From: a bacterium
GTDB taxonomy: Bacteria; Actinomycetota; Thermoleophilia; Solirubrobacterales; Solirubrobacteraceae
Assembly: GCA_021323635.1 (NCBI GenBank)
Contig: JAJPKQ010000037.1
Location: forward strand, 1-64,000
Reading direction: 5' to 3'
Length of the DNA stretch: 64,000 nucleotides
Below are positions 1,922 to 11,931 of this stretch, in pieces. Positions within the stretch are counted from its first letter, which is position 1; each line of letters opens with the position of its first letter. The notes beneath the pieces were generated by a model, which saw nothing but the letters and a program-made list of their open reading frames with translations, had not been told where the DNA came from and made no database searches. A program made the translations under genes and the position numbers.

Positions 1922-4429
1922 ATGACCCAGCGAGAGCGTCTCCAGTCAACATCGCAGCCCGGCGGCGGCGCGCGAGCGCGGCTCTCGGCTACCGTCCAGG
2001 CCGCGGAGGCAACCACAGGCGCCCGGCGCCCGCCGGCCCCAGGCGAGCAGGCGCCGGAGACGCCGGATGAGGCGCCGATCCGCCGCCGCCTGCGCAAGCT
2101 GCGGTTGATCTCGATCATCGGCGCAGCGCTGCTGTTGGCGGGCGTCTCCTTCCTTTACGGGATCTTCATGGCGGTGGTCTCCGACCTGCCTCAGCTCGAA
2201 GACCGCTATCAGTTCACCCACGCCCGCAACTCCTATCTGCTGGACGATCACGGCCGACCGCTGGCTGTGCTCTCGGAGCAGCATCGCATCCTGCTCTCGG
2301 CCGCCCAGATCCCTCGGATCGTCAAGGATGCGGTCATCTCCGTGGAGGACAAGCGCTTCTACAGCGAGCCGGGGATCGACCCGCAGGGCATCCTGCGCGC
2401 TGCGCTCGAGGACATCCTGCACCCGGGGGCCGTGCAGGGCGCCTCGACCATCACCGAGCAGTTCGTGAAGAACGCGCTGGCGGCGCAGGATCAGCGCACG
2501 ATCTTTGAGAAGCTCCGTGAGGCCGCGCTCGCCTTCCAGCTCGCGCACAAGTGGCCCAAGGAAAAGATCCTCGCGGAGTACCTGGACACGATCTACTTCG
2601 GCGAAGGCGCCTACGGCATCGAGGCCGCCGCCCAGACCTACTTCGGCCACGAACCGGGCCACAGCGGCTGCGGGCTTCCCGGCGCGCCGCTCTGCGTCAG
2701 CCAGCTCTCGGTGGCGCAGGCGGCGATGCTTGCCGGCGTGATCGCCTCGCCGACGGGCTTTGACCCCGTGACGCACCCCCGCGCCGCGTTGGCGAGACGA
2801 TCGCTCGCGCTCGCGGACATGCTTGCGCAGCACTACATCAGCCCTGCCGAATACCGCCAGGCGATGGCGACGCCGCTGCCCTCTCCCCTGGAGGTCCAGC
2901 CGCCGGAAGCCGCGCCGGTCGACGGCCTGCAGACGGGATACTTCACCAGCTGGGTCGAAGGCCAGCTGATCGAACGCTACGGCGCCCAGCGGGCGCTGGA
3001 GGGCGGCCTCACCGTCCACACGACGATAGACCTCGAACTGCAGCGCGCCGCCGAAGCTGCTGTGGCGAGCTACCTGTCGGGGCCCGGGGGCCCGACCGCT
3101 TCGCTGGTGGCGATTGAAAACTCAACCGGCGATGTGCGGGCGATGGTGGGTGGGCCCAACTTCAACAGCGACCCGTTCAACCTCGCAACCGAGGGCGAGC
3201 GCCAGCCGGGCTCGGCCTTCAAGGCCTTCGATCTCGCCGCAGCGCTGGAGCGCGGGATCTCCCCCTACTCGGTGTGGTCCTCGCGGCCGAAGGTCTTCAT
3301 CGTGCCCGGAACCGGTGGCCATGAAAAGTTCTATGTGCACAATGACGGCGAAGCCTATGCCCCGGGCGGCTACCGCACCCTGATCGAAGCGACCGCCTAC
3401 TCGGACAACACCGTCTTCTCCGAAATGGGGATCGATGTCGGCACCGGGAAGATCGCGCAGATCGCGCACAAGATGGGGATTGAAACGCCGATCTCCACCA
3501 ATCCGGCGATGACGATCGGGGGCCTGAAGGTCGGCGTCTCGCCGCTGGAGATGGCCCACGCCTACGAGACGATCGCCCACGGTGGCCAACGCGTCGACAG
3601 CTCCTTTGAGCCAAGCGGCGAACCGACCGGAATCCAGGAAGTCACCGCGCCCGCCGGCGAGACGCTGCCGAACGGCGCCAGCCGCGAAGTCAACCACGTC
3701 AGGCTCGTTCGGGTGCTGCCGGAAAGCGTGGCCGCCGAAGAGACCAAGATGCTTGAAACAGTCGTACAGTACGGCACGGCAAGGATGGCGGCGCTGGGCC
3801 AGTTCGCAGCGGGCAAGACCGGGACCACCACCAACTACACCGACGCCTGGTTCGTCGGCTGGGATGACAAGTACACCGTCGCGGTGTGGGTGGGCTTCCC
3901 CGCGCACCCGGTTCCGATGTACACCGATTTCAACGGCGGCCCGGTGGAAGGCGGAACCTTCCCGGCGCTGATCTGGCACAGCTTCATGGTCGGCGCGATG
4001 CAGATCGAACGTGAACACGCCGAAGGGAGCGCCGGTGCGACGCAGCACGCGGCGGCAGCAGGGACCGAAAGCACGTCCGCCCCGAGCGCCGGCATGCAGG
4101 GCAGATCGGCCACAGCGGCGAAGGGCCCGACTGAAGGCGGCGCCGGCCGGGCCGGTCATGCTCCATCCCCGGCGGTGAGCCACGAAGGGCCCGCCGGCGG
4201 GTCTGGAAGCGAAGCGGGCGCGAGCGCGCAGTCAGAACAGGGAGCGGCCAAGGCACCGGCAGGGGCGCCCGAAAAGGCCGAAGCGCCGAGCGCGAGCGGC
4301 ACCCAGCCTGGGGGCTCCGGGTCGGGCAGCGGCGCCGGCAGCGAAGCGGGCGCAAGCTCGGGCTCGCCGGGCGAAGCCAGCGGTGGCGCGCACCCGGGCG
4401 CAGGCGGTGCCGCGGCGCCGGGAGGCTAG
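1922..4429 (+). CDS. class A penicillin-binding protein (bifunctional transglycosylase/transpeptidase)
   Basis: Polymerises and cross-links peptidoglycan outside the membrane. The 835-residue protein has a cytoplasmic basic N-terminus, one membrane anchor at about 62-85, and a GT51 glycosyltransferase domain with the VEDKRFY motif (catalytic Glu142 by family rule). The transpeptidase domain follows, with SAFK (Ser431 to Lys434), SDN (494-496) and KTG (632-634). The last ~150 residues are a low-complexity Gly/Ser/Ala/Glu tail that probably does not fold. It is divergent from tyrS, and its 3' end overlaps the convergent flavin oxidoreductase gene by 4 bases. The length and motif order fit PBP1a/PonA-like enzymes of Gram-positive bacteria. 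Confidence 0.95.
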   Translation: MTQRERLQSTSQPGGGARARLSATVQAAEATTGARRPPAPGEQAPETPDEAPIRRRLRKLRLISIIGAALLLAGVSFLYGIFMAVVSDLPQLEDRYQFTHARNSYLLDDHGRPLAVLSEQHRILLSAAQIPRIVKDAVISVEDKRFYSEPGIDPQGILRAALEDILHPGAVQGASTITEQFVKNALAAQDQRTIFEKLREAALAFQLAHKWPKEKILAEYLDTIYFGEGAYGIEAAAQTYFGHEPGHSGCGLPGAPLCVSQLSVAQAAMLAGVIASPTGFDPVTHPRAALARRSLALADMLAQHYISPAEYRQAMATPLPSPLEVQPPEAAPVDGLQTGYFTSWVEGQLIERYGAQRALEGGLTVHTTIDLELQRAAEAAVASYLSGPGGPTASLVAIENSTGDVRAMVGGPNFNSDPFNLATEGERQPGSAFKAFDLAAALERGISPYSVWSSRPKVFIVPGTGGHEKFYVHNDGEAYAPGGYRTLIEATAYSDNTVFSEMGIDVGTGKIAQIAHKMGIETPISTNPAMTIGGLKVGVSPLEMAHAYETIAHGGQRVDSSFEPSGEPTGIQEVTAPAGETLPNGASREVNHVRLVRVLPESVAAEETKMLETVVQYGTARMAALGQFAAGKTGTTTNYTDAWFVGWDDKYTVAVWVGFPAHPVPMYTDFNGGPVEGGTFPALIWHSFMVGAMQIEREHAEGSAGATQHAAAAGTESTSAPSAGMQGRSATAAKGPTEGGAGRAGHAPSPAVSHEGPAGGSGSEAGASAQSEQGAAKAPAGAPEKAEAPSASGTQPGGSGSGSGAGSEAGASSGSPGEASGGAHPGAGGAAAPGG

Positions 4430-5729: not shown

Positions 5730-6539
5730 GTGCCGCTCTTCATGGACCGTCATGACCTTCCGGACGCCACTGCGGCCGACGTCGCGGCAGCGCACCTGCG
5801 TGACCTCGAGGTGCAGGAGCGTCATGGCGTGCGCTTCGTCACCTATTGGTTCGAGGAAGGCGCGGGCAGTGGCTTTTGCCTCGTCGAGGGACCTGACGCG
5901 GTGAGCGTCGAAGCCGCCCACGCGGAGGCGCACGGGCTGACCCCTTCGCACGTGATTGAGGTCGACGAGGCAAGCATCCGCGGCTTCTTCGGTCGGCTCA
6001 ACACCCATCCTCCCGGAGAGCCGTATGTCGAAAGCGCGTTTCGCGCGATCCTGTTCACCGATATCGTCGACTCTACGCGACTAACGCAGCTATGGGGAGA
6101 TCTTGGGGCGATGCGCTTGCTGCGCCAGCACGACTCGATCGTGCGTGCAGCGCTCGCTCGGTTCGGCGGCACCGAGGTCAAGCACACCGGCGATGGCATC
6201 ATGGCTGCGTTCGCCTCCGCATCTCAGTCGGTGCACGCTGCAGTGCACATCCAGCGAGAGCTGCACGTCCGCGAGGGCACAGATCAAGCGCTGCAGCTGC
6301 GGATGCGGATCGGCGTGGCCGCGGGGGAGCCGGTGAGCGAGCAGGGCGACCTCTTCGGCGCCGCGGTGCAGCAGGCTGCGCGGCTGTGCGCGTGTGCGCA
6401 GCCCGGAGGCATCGTCGTCTCGTTGGGCGTGCAGGATCTCTGCCGCGGCAAGGGGTTCTCCTTCTCGGATTGCCGCTCTGCCACGGTAAAGGGCTTCGAG
6501 GAGCCGATCGGGCATTACGAGGTGCGCTGGCGCGACTGA
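5730..6539 (+). CDS. DUF4242 domain fused to class III adenylate/guanylate cyclase
   Basis: Residues 1-79 match the small DUF4242 (SCO4226-type, proposed nickel-binding) fold, starting MPLFMDRHDLP. Residues ~104-269 form a class III nucleotidyl cyclase domain with metal-binding Asp111 (FTDIVDST) and Asp155 (KHTGDG), substrate-side Lys151, Asp207 (GDLFG), and Arg218 of the AARL helix. The position usually held by the transition-state Asn (VNxAARL) is Gln214. No membrane segment is present, so the enzyme should be soluble. GTG at 5730 is chosen because the DUF4242 fold needs the first four residues; ATG 5742 is the alternative. Likely makes cAMP from ATP in response to a ligand of the N-terminal domain; the ligand is unknown. 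Confidence 0.88.
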   Translation: MPLFMDRHDLPDATAADVAAAHLRDLEVQERHGVRFVTYWFEEGAGSGFCLVEGPDAVSVEAAHAEAHGLTPSHVIEVDEASIRGFFGRLNTHPPGEPYVESAFRAILFTDIVDSTRLTQLWGDLGAMRLLRQHDSIVRAALARFGGTEVKHTGDGIMAAFASASQSVHAAVHIQRELHVREGTDQALQLRMRIGVAAGEPVSEQGDLFGAAVQQAARLCACAQPGGIVVSLGVQDLCRGKGFSFSDCRSATVKGFEEPIGHYEVRWRD

Positions 6540-7267: not shown

Positions 7268-7340
7268 CGGATCCTCCTTGGATGGTTCGGATGGGAGAGG
7301 GTTGCTTGCTCTGCCCTTTAACGCAGATCAGCGCCTGCGG

Positions 7341-8867
7341 TCAGGGTCTACCGTTTGCTTCGCTTGCTGCTTGACGGTGGCCTGCAGCGCCTTCGGGCGT
7401 GCGGCCGGCGCCTCTGCCGCCAGCGGGCTCCCCCGCGGATGGAGCCTGCGCGGCGCCGCTACGCCTGTCGGCGCCTTCGCGGTGGCCTTCGCCGTGGCCG
7501 TTTGCCCTGCCCTCGCCGGCGTCGCTGCGTCCGCTCGCCGCCCGCCGGTGAGCACCCGCCTGGGAGTGGGCGAAGCCTCTGCTCGGTCCTCTTTCGTGGT
7601 GCCCTCCGTGCGGCGGTGCCTGTGAGCGCCCGCCTTCGCTGGCGGCTGGCGTGCGCGTGGGAGCGGGTGCCCCAAGGCGGGCAGCGCCGCCGCCGGCGCG
7701 TTCGCTCGCTGCCGGAGCCTGGCTGGCGGCTGCCTGCTTCACGAGCGCTTTGCTGCCGACGCCGGCGCCGGAGGCGCGGTGTCGATGCGCGCTCGATGCT
7801 GCCGGCGCTCTCGCGCTTGCGCTGTGGCGCGCGCGTGGGAGGTCAGCAGCAGCCCTCGCACCGGAGCTGCGGTGCGCGTGAGCGCTCGCAGCGCGCGGGG
7901 TGTGGCTTGCGGCGAGCGTCATGCCTCCGGCCGCTGCGCCCGCAGCCAGGAGCGCGCCCGCGAGCACCTTTGCAAGCACCGCAAGGCCGGCGTGATTGGC
8001 GCCGATGCCTGCGGAGGAGACGCCTGCGCCGCCGGCGCCAAGCGAGGCCGCCCTGCCGCCGTGGGCGCCCACGCCCGAAAGCAGCCTCTGCATCAGCGCC
8101 GCAGAGGCTGCAAGCGGCAATGGCGGGAAGAGCGCCTGCAGCGTGCGTTCGCGCGCGGCGATCGACTCGGCGAAGGCGCGACAGCTCTCGCAGGCGCGCA
8201 GATGAGCGCGCACGCGACGGCCGCGCAGGGTGCGCCTGTCCCCTGCGCCGATCAGCTCGCGTACGCTCTCACAGCCCATCGAGCGCCCCTCCTGGAGATC
8301 GTGCAGCGCCGATCGCGCTTCGAATATCAGCTGCTTGGTCGCGCCCTCCGACACCTCCAGCGCCAGAGCGATCTCGGCGATCGGGAGGCCGCTCAGCTCG
8401 CGCATCAGCAGCGCCCCCCGCTGACGCTCGGGCAGCGACTGGATATCGGCCAGGAGCTCTCGCAGCTGCTCGGCCGCCATCATCTCCTCCGCTGCGCTCG
8501 GACTCGCACCGGCAGCGGCGAGCGCGTCGAGGTCGACCTCGCGCGTGCGCTGCGGCGAGCGCTTGCGCAGCAGCGAGATCGACTCGTTGTGAGCGATGCG
8601 AAACAGCCAGGGCCGCAACGCCAGCCGACCGTCCGCATGTGGCAATGCCCGCAGGGCAGCTAGCATCGTGCTCTGCAGCGCGTCCTGAGCGTCCTCGTGG
8701 TCGTGCAGGATCGCGCGACAGTAGCGGTAGAGCGCCTGGTGATGTCGGCGGTAGACCGCCACAAAGCTGCGCTCTTGAGCGCGCCTCGCGCGCCCGGCGC
8801 CGCCAACGTCGGCGCACACAGGGGGCGCATCCGGGCGAGTCTGCTGGGTGCTCTGCTCTAGGCCCAT
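7341..8867 (-). CDS. ECF sigma factor fused to a zinc-finger anti-sigma-like domain and membrane tail
   Basis: The 508-residue protein starts as a normal ECF sigma factor: region 2 at ~34-103 (FVAVYRRHHQALYRYCRA, HEDAQDALQ) and region 4 at ~136-193 (SLPERQRGALLMRELSG, a helix-turn-helix at PIAEIALALEVS). It then continues with Cys199 and the HxxxCxxC pattern (His222, Cys226, Cys229) typical of zinc-binding anti-sigma domains, and a hydrophobic segment at ~294-320. The final ~190 residues are Ala/Gly/His/Arg-rich and would be outside the membrane. So sigma factor and putative inhibitor occupy one chain. No frameshift is visible. ATG at 8867. Confidence 0.85.
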   Translation of the reverse strand: MGLEQSTQQTRPDAPPVCADVGGAGRARRAQERSFVAVYRRHHQALYRYCRAILHDHEDAQDALQSTMLAALRALPHADGRLALRPWLFRIAHNESISLLRKRSPQRTREVDLDALAAAGASPSAAEEMMAAEQLRELLADIQSLPERQRGALLMRELSGLPIAEIALALEVSEGATKQLIFEARSALHDLQEGRSMGCESVRELIGAGDRRTLRGRRVRAHLRACESCRAFAESIAARERTLQALFPPLPLAASAALMQRLLSGVGAHGGRAASLGAGGAGVSSAGIGANHAGLAVLAKVLAGALLAAGAAAGGMTLAASHTPRAASAHAHRSSGARAAADLPRARHSASARAPAASSAHRHRASGAGVGSKALVKQAAASQAPAASERAGGGAARLGAPAPTRTPAASEGGRSQAPPHGGHHERGPSRGFAHSQAGAHRRAASGRSDAGEGRANGHGEGHREGADRRSGAAQAPSAGEPAGGRGAGRTPEGAAGHRQAASEANGRP

Positions 8868-8959
8868 GGCTCACACACCTCTAACGCGCCACCATTGCCA
8901 AGGTTAGGCGCAACCGCGGCGGATGCCAAGCGTGCGGTGGACGGATTGGCAGCGCCACC

Positions 8960-11118: not shown

Positions 11119-11931
11119 CTATTCGAAGCTGACGCTGAATGCGCTCGCGCCCGCAAGCGGCCCCGCGCTTGCCAGCAGCGGCAGGCTGCTCGCGCTCGAG
11201 GAGCTGTCGATGCCCGAGCTGCCCGAGCCTCCCGCTGTCAGATCCAGCCGCGTCACCTGGTAGCGCCCGCTTTCAATCGCCAGCAGCGGCTGGCCGACGA
11301 GGGCGCTCAGTGAATCGCTGAAGCTGACGGTGCCGAAGTTCGCCAGCGGCAGCACCCGACAGCGGCCTTCTTCGCAGCCGGTCGGCGCCTCCGCAATCCA
11401 CTCCGCAGAGGTCAGGTCGGGCGTGCGCATGTGGCGCGTGACCTCGGCCACCGCGCCATCTGTGAGGTCGCGGATGTGCAGCGCGATCGAGCTGCCCGCG
11501 ACGGTCACGCTCGCGGCGATGCGGTCGCCCGACCTCACCGCCAGCGGGAGGTTGACCGGCGCAGAGGGGATCAGCTCATACCACGCATAGACATGCACAT
11601 GGCCGCCGCTGCCGCAGTCGCTGTCGGTGCCGATCTGCTCGAGCTTGCGCGAGGAGGGCTTGAAGCCGCCAAGCCCGACCCAGAAGGCGGAGTAGCTTGC
11701 TGCGCCCGGGGTGCAGCGCGGCGCAGGCTGCACCCATTCGCCGAGCACGCGCCGAAAGGGCGCCCGGGCGGTGACCGCGTATCCTGCCCAGTTTTCGCTT
11801 CGCGCCAGCGCCTGCGCGCCGGCGGCCGCCGGCCGCGCCAGCGTGCCGAGCGCCACGGCAAGCGCGAGCGCCGCGCGGAGCCCGGGCATTACGACCAGGG
11901 TCTGCGGCCGCCGCTGCCGAGGGCGTCTCAC
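11119..11931 (-). CDS. G1 family (eqolisin-type) glutamic endopeptidase, secreted
   Basis: The 270-residue product has a signal peptide (Arg-rich start, then a hydrophobic run to AAAGAQA near 40) and a G1 peptidase beta-sandwich. Visible family features are NWAGYAV, EWVQP, SAFWVGLGGF, LEQIGTDSDC with the likely catalytic Gln99, YAWYELIP, and SAEWIAEAPTG with the catalytic Glu (177 or 181). NFGTVSFS closes the domain. The last ~30 residues are Ser/Gly/Ala-rich. GTG at 11931 overlaps the stop of the upstream aminotransferase gene (GTGA), suggesting coupling; ATG 11889 is an alternative start giving a tighter signal peptide. Acid-active secreted protease is the family role. Confidence 0.85.
   Translation of the reverse strand: MRRPRQRRPQTLVVMPGLRAALALAVALGTLARPAAAGAQALARSENWAGYAVTARAPFRRVLGEWVQPAPRCTPGAASYSAFWVGLGGFKPSSRKLEQIGTDSDCGSGGHVHVYAWYELIPSAPVNLPLAVRSGDRIAASVTVAGSSIALHIRDLTDGAVAEVTRHMRTPDLTSAEWIAEAPTGCEEGRCRVLPLANFGTVSFSDSLSALVGQPLLAIESGRYQVTRLDLTAGGSGSSGIDSSSSASSLPLLASAGPLAGASAFSVSFE

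Follow-up and report, generated by a model that had tools for sequence, protein, structure and literature searches.

Several extracytoplasmic function (ECF) sigma factors carry their own regulator in the same polypeptide. In ECF48, ECF52, and ECF53, the sigma factor is described as fused to a zinc anti-sigma (ZAS)-like domain and one or two membrane helices, and IutY of Pseudomonas putida (ECF243) is a sigma factor fused to a membrane anti-sigma factor and freed by the proteases Prc and RseP (PMC8999054). According to the same source, IutY is the only tethered one-piece sigma factor with an experimentally characterised proteolytic activation, which is expected also for ECF48, ECF52, and ECF53 (PMC8999054). 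Carbohydrate domains are predicted in some of the ECF52 and ECF53 proteins (PMC10766802). In SCO4117 of Streptomyces coelicolor, a member of ECF52, the ECF sigma factor, zinc finger, transmembrane region, and low-complexity outer part are reported to form one polypeptide, for which proteolytic release and autoregulation were proposed (PMC5826349, PMC8999054). Tethered one-piece sigma factors remain largely unstudied. Here we describe a fused sigma factor gene and the secreted-protein gene that follows it, located in a window of 64,000 nucleotides from a Solirubrobacteraceae genome (contig JAJPKQ010000037.1, positions 1 to 64,000). The one-piece combination of sigma factor, brake, and anchor is a known design; what is new is the same predicted promoter before the sigma gene and before the secreted gene, together with the apparent exchange of the secreted partner in relatives.

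The window sigma factor resembles SCO4117 in having these parts in one polypeptide, and in the proteolytic release and autoregulation proposed for it. The zinc finger and transmembrane region that characterise ECF52 are recognised here by motif and hydropathy only. SCO4117 has a carbohydrate-binding module (PMC5826349), whereas the window sigma factor has none, and no such family was found after the membrane helix in the homologues scanned (26/26). Membership in ECF52 was rejected because the carbohydrate module is absent. The promoters differ as well: the motif proposed for SCO4117 is CSGYN-17bp-SRHA (PMC5826349), in contrast to CTRACC-N15-CGTTARA at the window locus, where the sigma gene is, moreover, followed by a secreted-protein gene with a twin promoter. 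The likeness to ECF48 and ECF53, which were compared by description only, lies in the ZAS-like domain and membrane helices fused to the sigma factor, and that to IutY in the fusion to a membrane anti-sigma factor.

The two predicted promoters (Table 1) share the consensus CTRACC-N15-CGTTARA. ECF promoters typically contain AAC at the −35 and CGT at the −10 position, and ECF sigma factors are often autoregulated (PMC8103513). The strict core TRACC-N15-CGTTAR is confined to this locus, where both of its sites in the 2.64-Mb genome lie, and the reversed-pattern control gave no site. Among the relatives, CTRAC-N15-17-CGT is present near the start of 20 out of 31 sigma homologues, whereas 500 shuffles gave 0.43 on average and never more than 4. 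The motif usually lies 40 or 41 bases before the start codon, and the predicted mRNA leader is therefore only a few bases long. The motif is also present at the sigma stop codon in all eight genomes in which the secreted gene adjoins the fused sigma gene (shuffle mean 0.032, maximum 1, 1000 shuffles). The initial annotation of the window had offered the next gene as a possible regulon output or sensor partner, and the first of these assignments gains support from sequence, because the same motif precedes both genes, is kept in 8/8 pairs, and in its strict form lies nowhere else in the genome. A large regulon in this genome is unsupported, with the looser motif at chance level.

Table 1. Features of the fused sigma locus, in window coordinates
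Feature	Position	Strand	Remarks
ECF-type promoter motif CTAACC-N15-CGTTAGA	8880..8907	-	40 bases before the sigma start codon
Same motif, CTGACC-N15-CGTTAAA	7317..7344	-	Predicted promoter of the next gene; its TGA is the sigma stop codon
Fused ECF sigma factor gene	7341..8867	-	ATG start, 508 amino acids, without frameshift
Sigma region 2, residues 39-104	8556..8753	-	Pfam PF04542 (Sigma70_r2), E 4e-16
Sigma region 4, residues 137-188	8304..8459	-	Pfam PF08281 (Sigma70_r4_2), E 4e-12
Zinc anti-sigma-type motif Cys199, His222, Cys226, Cys229	8181..8273	-	Invariant in 26/26 rows of alignment A2
Ala/Gly-rich hydrophobic segment, residues 294-320, likely membrane helix	7908..7988	-	Kyte-Doolittle 2.05
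Low-complexity tail, residues 321-508 (188 residues)	7344..7907	-	Length and composition compared across 28 homologues
Small protein with signal-peptide-like N-terminus, 194 amino acids	6683..7267	-	Matches neither a Pfam nor an NCBIfam family
Shine-Dalgarno-like AAGGAGG of the secreted-protein gene	7273..7279	-	Direct sequence reading

The fused protein contains sigma regions 2 and 4 and lacks regions 1 and 3, since Pfam recognises only r2 and r4_2, as is characteristic of ECF sigma factors, and it scores 83 bits against TIGR02937 (cut-off 42.9). The predicted zinc ligands are spaced His222-x3-Cys226-x2-Cys229, plus Cys199, which is the Hx3Cx2C arrangement of the class I zinc anti-sigma domain (ZAS or ASDI). 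The best hydrophobic 19-mer comprises residues 295–313 (Kyte-Doolittle 2.05). The initial annotation, made from the letters of the window, had placed both sigma regions, the four zinc ligands, and a hydrophobic segment at residues 294–320 in a single frame. Pfam bears out the two regions, the ligand positions are correct, the best 19-mer falls inside the segment, and both the sequence and the homologues support the proposal that sigma factor, zinc anti-sigma-type domain, and membrane segment are fused in one protein. The next gene had been described as secreted and 73 bases away on the same strand, in agreement with the gap of 7268–7340 and with its signal-peptide-like N-terminus. Signal peptides were called by visual inspection and a rough rule of thumb. 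A plus-strand open reading frame at 7355–8884 (509 amino acids) was regarded as an antisense artefact of the high G+C content.

The architecture, the predicted twin promoters, and their conservation are established on the level of sequence. The locus is probably a compact two-gene signalling unit, in which a tethered, self-inhibited sigma factor would be released by proteolysis and would transcribe itself and the secreted protein from the twin promoters. One polypeptide would combine the sigma factor with an anti-sigma-type domain of class I (zinc), one membrane helix, and an outside tail that is disordered, and the anti-sigma-type domain may mask the sigma domains at the membrane. Upon a signal, the outer part would be cut first and the membrane helix second, and the sigma portion set free in this way could join RNA polymerase. 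The holding at the membrane and the release upon a signal are proposed by analogy with IutY and ECF52 and in view of the M50 proteases encoded in the genome. We infer that the fused sigma factor reads both promoters. Recognition of CTRAC-N15-CGTT before its own gene would give positive feedback through an mRNA with a very short leader, and recognition of the second CTRAC-N15-CGTT on its own stop codon would start the small secreted-protein gene. The locus lends itself to testing, with both promoters predicted to single-base precision, a motif nearly unique in the genome, and a defined gene as reporter.

Several observations weigh against this two-gene reading. The motif was initially derived from these very two sites, and therefore the tests that count are those in relatives. 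In this genome the looser motif is at chance, with 15 sites compared to 28 in the control, and the search of the genus yielded 48 pattern sites against 30 in the control, summed over 21 genomes, which is a modest excess. By their place, 14 of these 48 sites were judged to be part of a sigma/secreted-gene unit. The strict motif is missing near the start of 11 out of 31 sigma homologues, and no secreted gene follows the stop-codon motif in 5 out of 19 loci (L012, L029, L193, L198, and L203). Most copies of the secreted gene are located away from a sigma gene; of the 17 family genomes with such a gene, 5 have it adjacent. On the protein side, the match of zf-HC2 to residues 217–230 is weak (E 0.057, 14 bits, below the Pfam cut-off of 22.2), so that the ZAS/ASDI domain is not recognised by its family profile, and conservation among homologues is therefore the better test of the zinc region. 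The hydrophobic segment is rich in alanine and glycine and only moderately hydrophobic, and the single-sequence AlphaFold models of both proteins were unusably poor, with mean predicted local distance difference test values of 43 and 45.

The homologue set consists of 31 sigma factors, of which 29 represent 29 further genomes of the family, one is that of the window, and one is a paralogue from its own genome. Alignment A2 contains 26 of them and leaves out L019 (same values as L018), L024 (start unclear), and L025, L033, and L038 (contig ends); alignment A1 leaves out L055 (start unclear). The motif HxxxCxxC is present in 31/31 homologues, including all five omitted from A2, and all four ligands are invariant in the 26 aligned. 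The motif is absent from four other sigma-like proteins fetched from the window's genome (L003–L006). A match of zf-HC2 at E up to 0.1 was obtained for 7 of the 26 homologues, and, sigma and zinc-finger domains apart, no Pfam domain is common to more than a few of those scanned. The invariance of the ligands also fits an anti-sigma-type domain that functions as a cytoplasmic redox or metal switch, in which zinc loss would open a membrane-held protein without proteolysis. According to PMC7406223, zinc is required by some class I anti-sigma domains, and redox sensing is frequent among the cytoplasmic ones; the same source argues, however, that in anti-sigma factors bound to the membrane the zinc often has a structural role. 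We consider such a switch unlikely, as it leaves the conserved hydrophobic segment and the long outside tail unexplained.

The hydrophobic segment reaches a 19-mer hydropathy of at least 1.5 in 29 out of 30 homologues and of at least 1.6 in 26 out of 30, whereas the far tail reaches 1.5 in none of them. The lysine before the segment (K300) is nearly invariant. It is quite improbable, given both features, that the segment is not a membrane helix and that the sigma factor is soluble, its low-complexity tail tuning activity or stability, a view which the alanine- and glycine-rich composition and moderate hydropathy of the segment, and the lack of a usable structure with a membrane helix, would otherwise favour.

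The tail extends for 138–326 codons past the hydrophobic segment in all 28 homologues with a closed frame. Cysteine makes up 0.000 of its 5,486 residues in the sense frame, as opposed to 1.0% and 1.7% in the two alternative forward frames, and tryptophan and phenylalanine are also rarest in the sense frame. The openness of the sense frame is in part by construction, as each frame was followed to its own stop, and the length and amino-acid make-up of the tail are the real test. The third-position G+C content of the tail (0.718) is lower than that of positions one and two (0.798 and 0.777), and is therefore no help in judging whether the tail is coding. A chance frameshift or an untranslated tail is ruled out by the tail length and amino-acid make-up in the homologues. 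The initial annotation had proposed to look for the same fusion in homologues, and would have been contradicted by proteins ending after region 4 or by a frameshift; instead, none of the 28 ends there, no frameshift was found, and the zinc motif (31/31), hydrophobic segment (29/30), and long tail (28/28) recur together with the sigma regions.

Beyond this set, a match to the fused sigma factor was found in 100 of 101 sampled family genomes, many with frames of 500–600 amino acids, although this count includes ordinary ECF factors. At a threshold of 1e-15, 94 of the 246 genomes in a phylum sample gave a match. The fusion, as predicted from sequence, is ordinary in these bacteria, since fused forms with the ZAS motif, hydrophobic segment, and tail were encountered at the family, order, and class level, as well as in two more distant genomes of the phylum (G192 and G174). 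What a scan of genome contigs returned from distant phyla were only generic ECF factors.

The M50 site-2 proteases encoded in the genome had matches in each of the 14 control genomes as well, which makes them weak evidence for release. Another sigma-like protein of the same genome, L003 (contig C18, within L211 866-4659), is a fused sigma factor of 450 amino acids with a tail and without HxxxCxxC. Its gene is located directly after that of a secreted DUF5666-like protein (E 0.0017, below the cut-off) and adjoins a divergent gene for an M50 site-2 protease with a CBS domain. The company of a secreted protein and an M50 protease is suggestive with respect to release, but is not proof of it.

The motif was further traced in 80 sigma loci, in which L029 and L193, from the same genome (G070) and with the same motif, are counted apart. 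It is present upstream of the sigma gene in 28 loci, and well placed in 26 of them. It is quite unlikely that both promoters are read by another ECF sigma factor and that the fused one serves other genes, since the motif tracks this fused-sigma clade, being well placed in 22 of the 36 best-scoring loci (at least 430 bits) and in 4 of the 44 others (split counted by hand), and is missing from the fused paralogue L002 (37% identical), one of the further sigma-like proteins in the genome that could act in its stead. L002 is encoded on contig C46 and belongs to a separate clade.

At the sigma stop codon, the motif occurs in 19 of the 80 loci, and in nine of these, the window included, the TGA lies inside the CTGAC box. 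A secreted-looking gene comes next in 14 of the 19 loci; eight of the partners are of the window type, five contain a cysteine repeat, and one is of another kind (L082). In the cysteine-repeat loci (L030, L034, L036, L199, and L209), a like sigma gene with a stop-codon promoter precedes the gene of an unrelated small protein with a signal-peptide-like start, in which the repeat resembles SKKHVxGxxGTPFSxCV. Two of these proteins were tested and matched no Pfam family. In a quick tree of the sigma and zinc regions, for which support values were not considered, the two main partner types are interspersed, with the window type in the genus of the window and in L147, and the cysteine-repeat type in at least three places. 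This distribution suggests that the secreted partner has been repeatedly exchanged behind a fixed predicted promoter, and a comparison of relatives may reveal what such sensors watch. A tentative extension, which we regard as possible but rather doubtful, is a unit with an exchangeable output, in which the output promoter on the sigma stop codon would serve swapped secreted proteins, and the secreted protein would act back on the outside tail and close the loop outside the cell.

Relatives of the 194-residue protein were detected in 17 of 101 family genomes and in 13 of 199 class genomes (profile, 1e-6). The secreted gene adjoins the fused sigma gene on the same strand in G000, G099, G063, G092, G096, G348, G350, and G352, and the pairs in the last three were discovered by the promoter pattern alone, among the 21 genomes of the genus. 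In G035, the motif is kept on the sigma stop codon without a secreted gene behind it, and a relative of the secreted gene on another contig has a motif of its own. Sigma-unlinked copies of the secreted gene have the motif upstream in G035, G092, and G050, whereas other unlinked copies lack it. Among solved structures, the best match to the protein (E-value 0.15) is not convincing, and its scattered weak Pfam matches include several to OB-like families. The secreted protein found no match among plasmids, and the scan of the defence library gave none. Titles and abstract openings, searched in part by lineage and with subscription papers outside the scope, contained no literature on this sigma clade or its secreted partner.

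Elsewhere in the window, the region 5730–6539 (+) encodes an SCO4226-like (nickel-responsive) domain fused to an adenylate/guanylate cyclase catalytic domain, and 11119–11931 (−) a Peptidase A4 family protein. The region 1922–4429 (+) encodes a transglycosylase/transpeptidase penicillin-binding protein, the low-complexity tail of which resembles that of the sigma factor.
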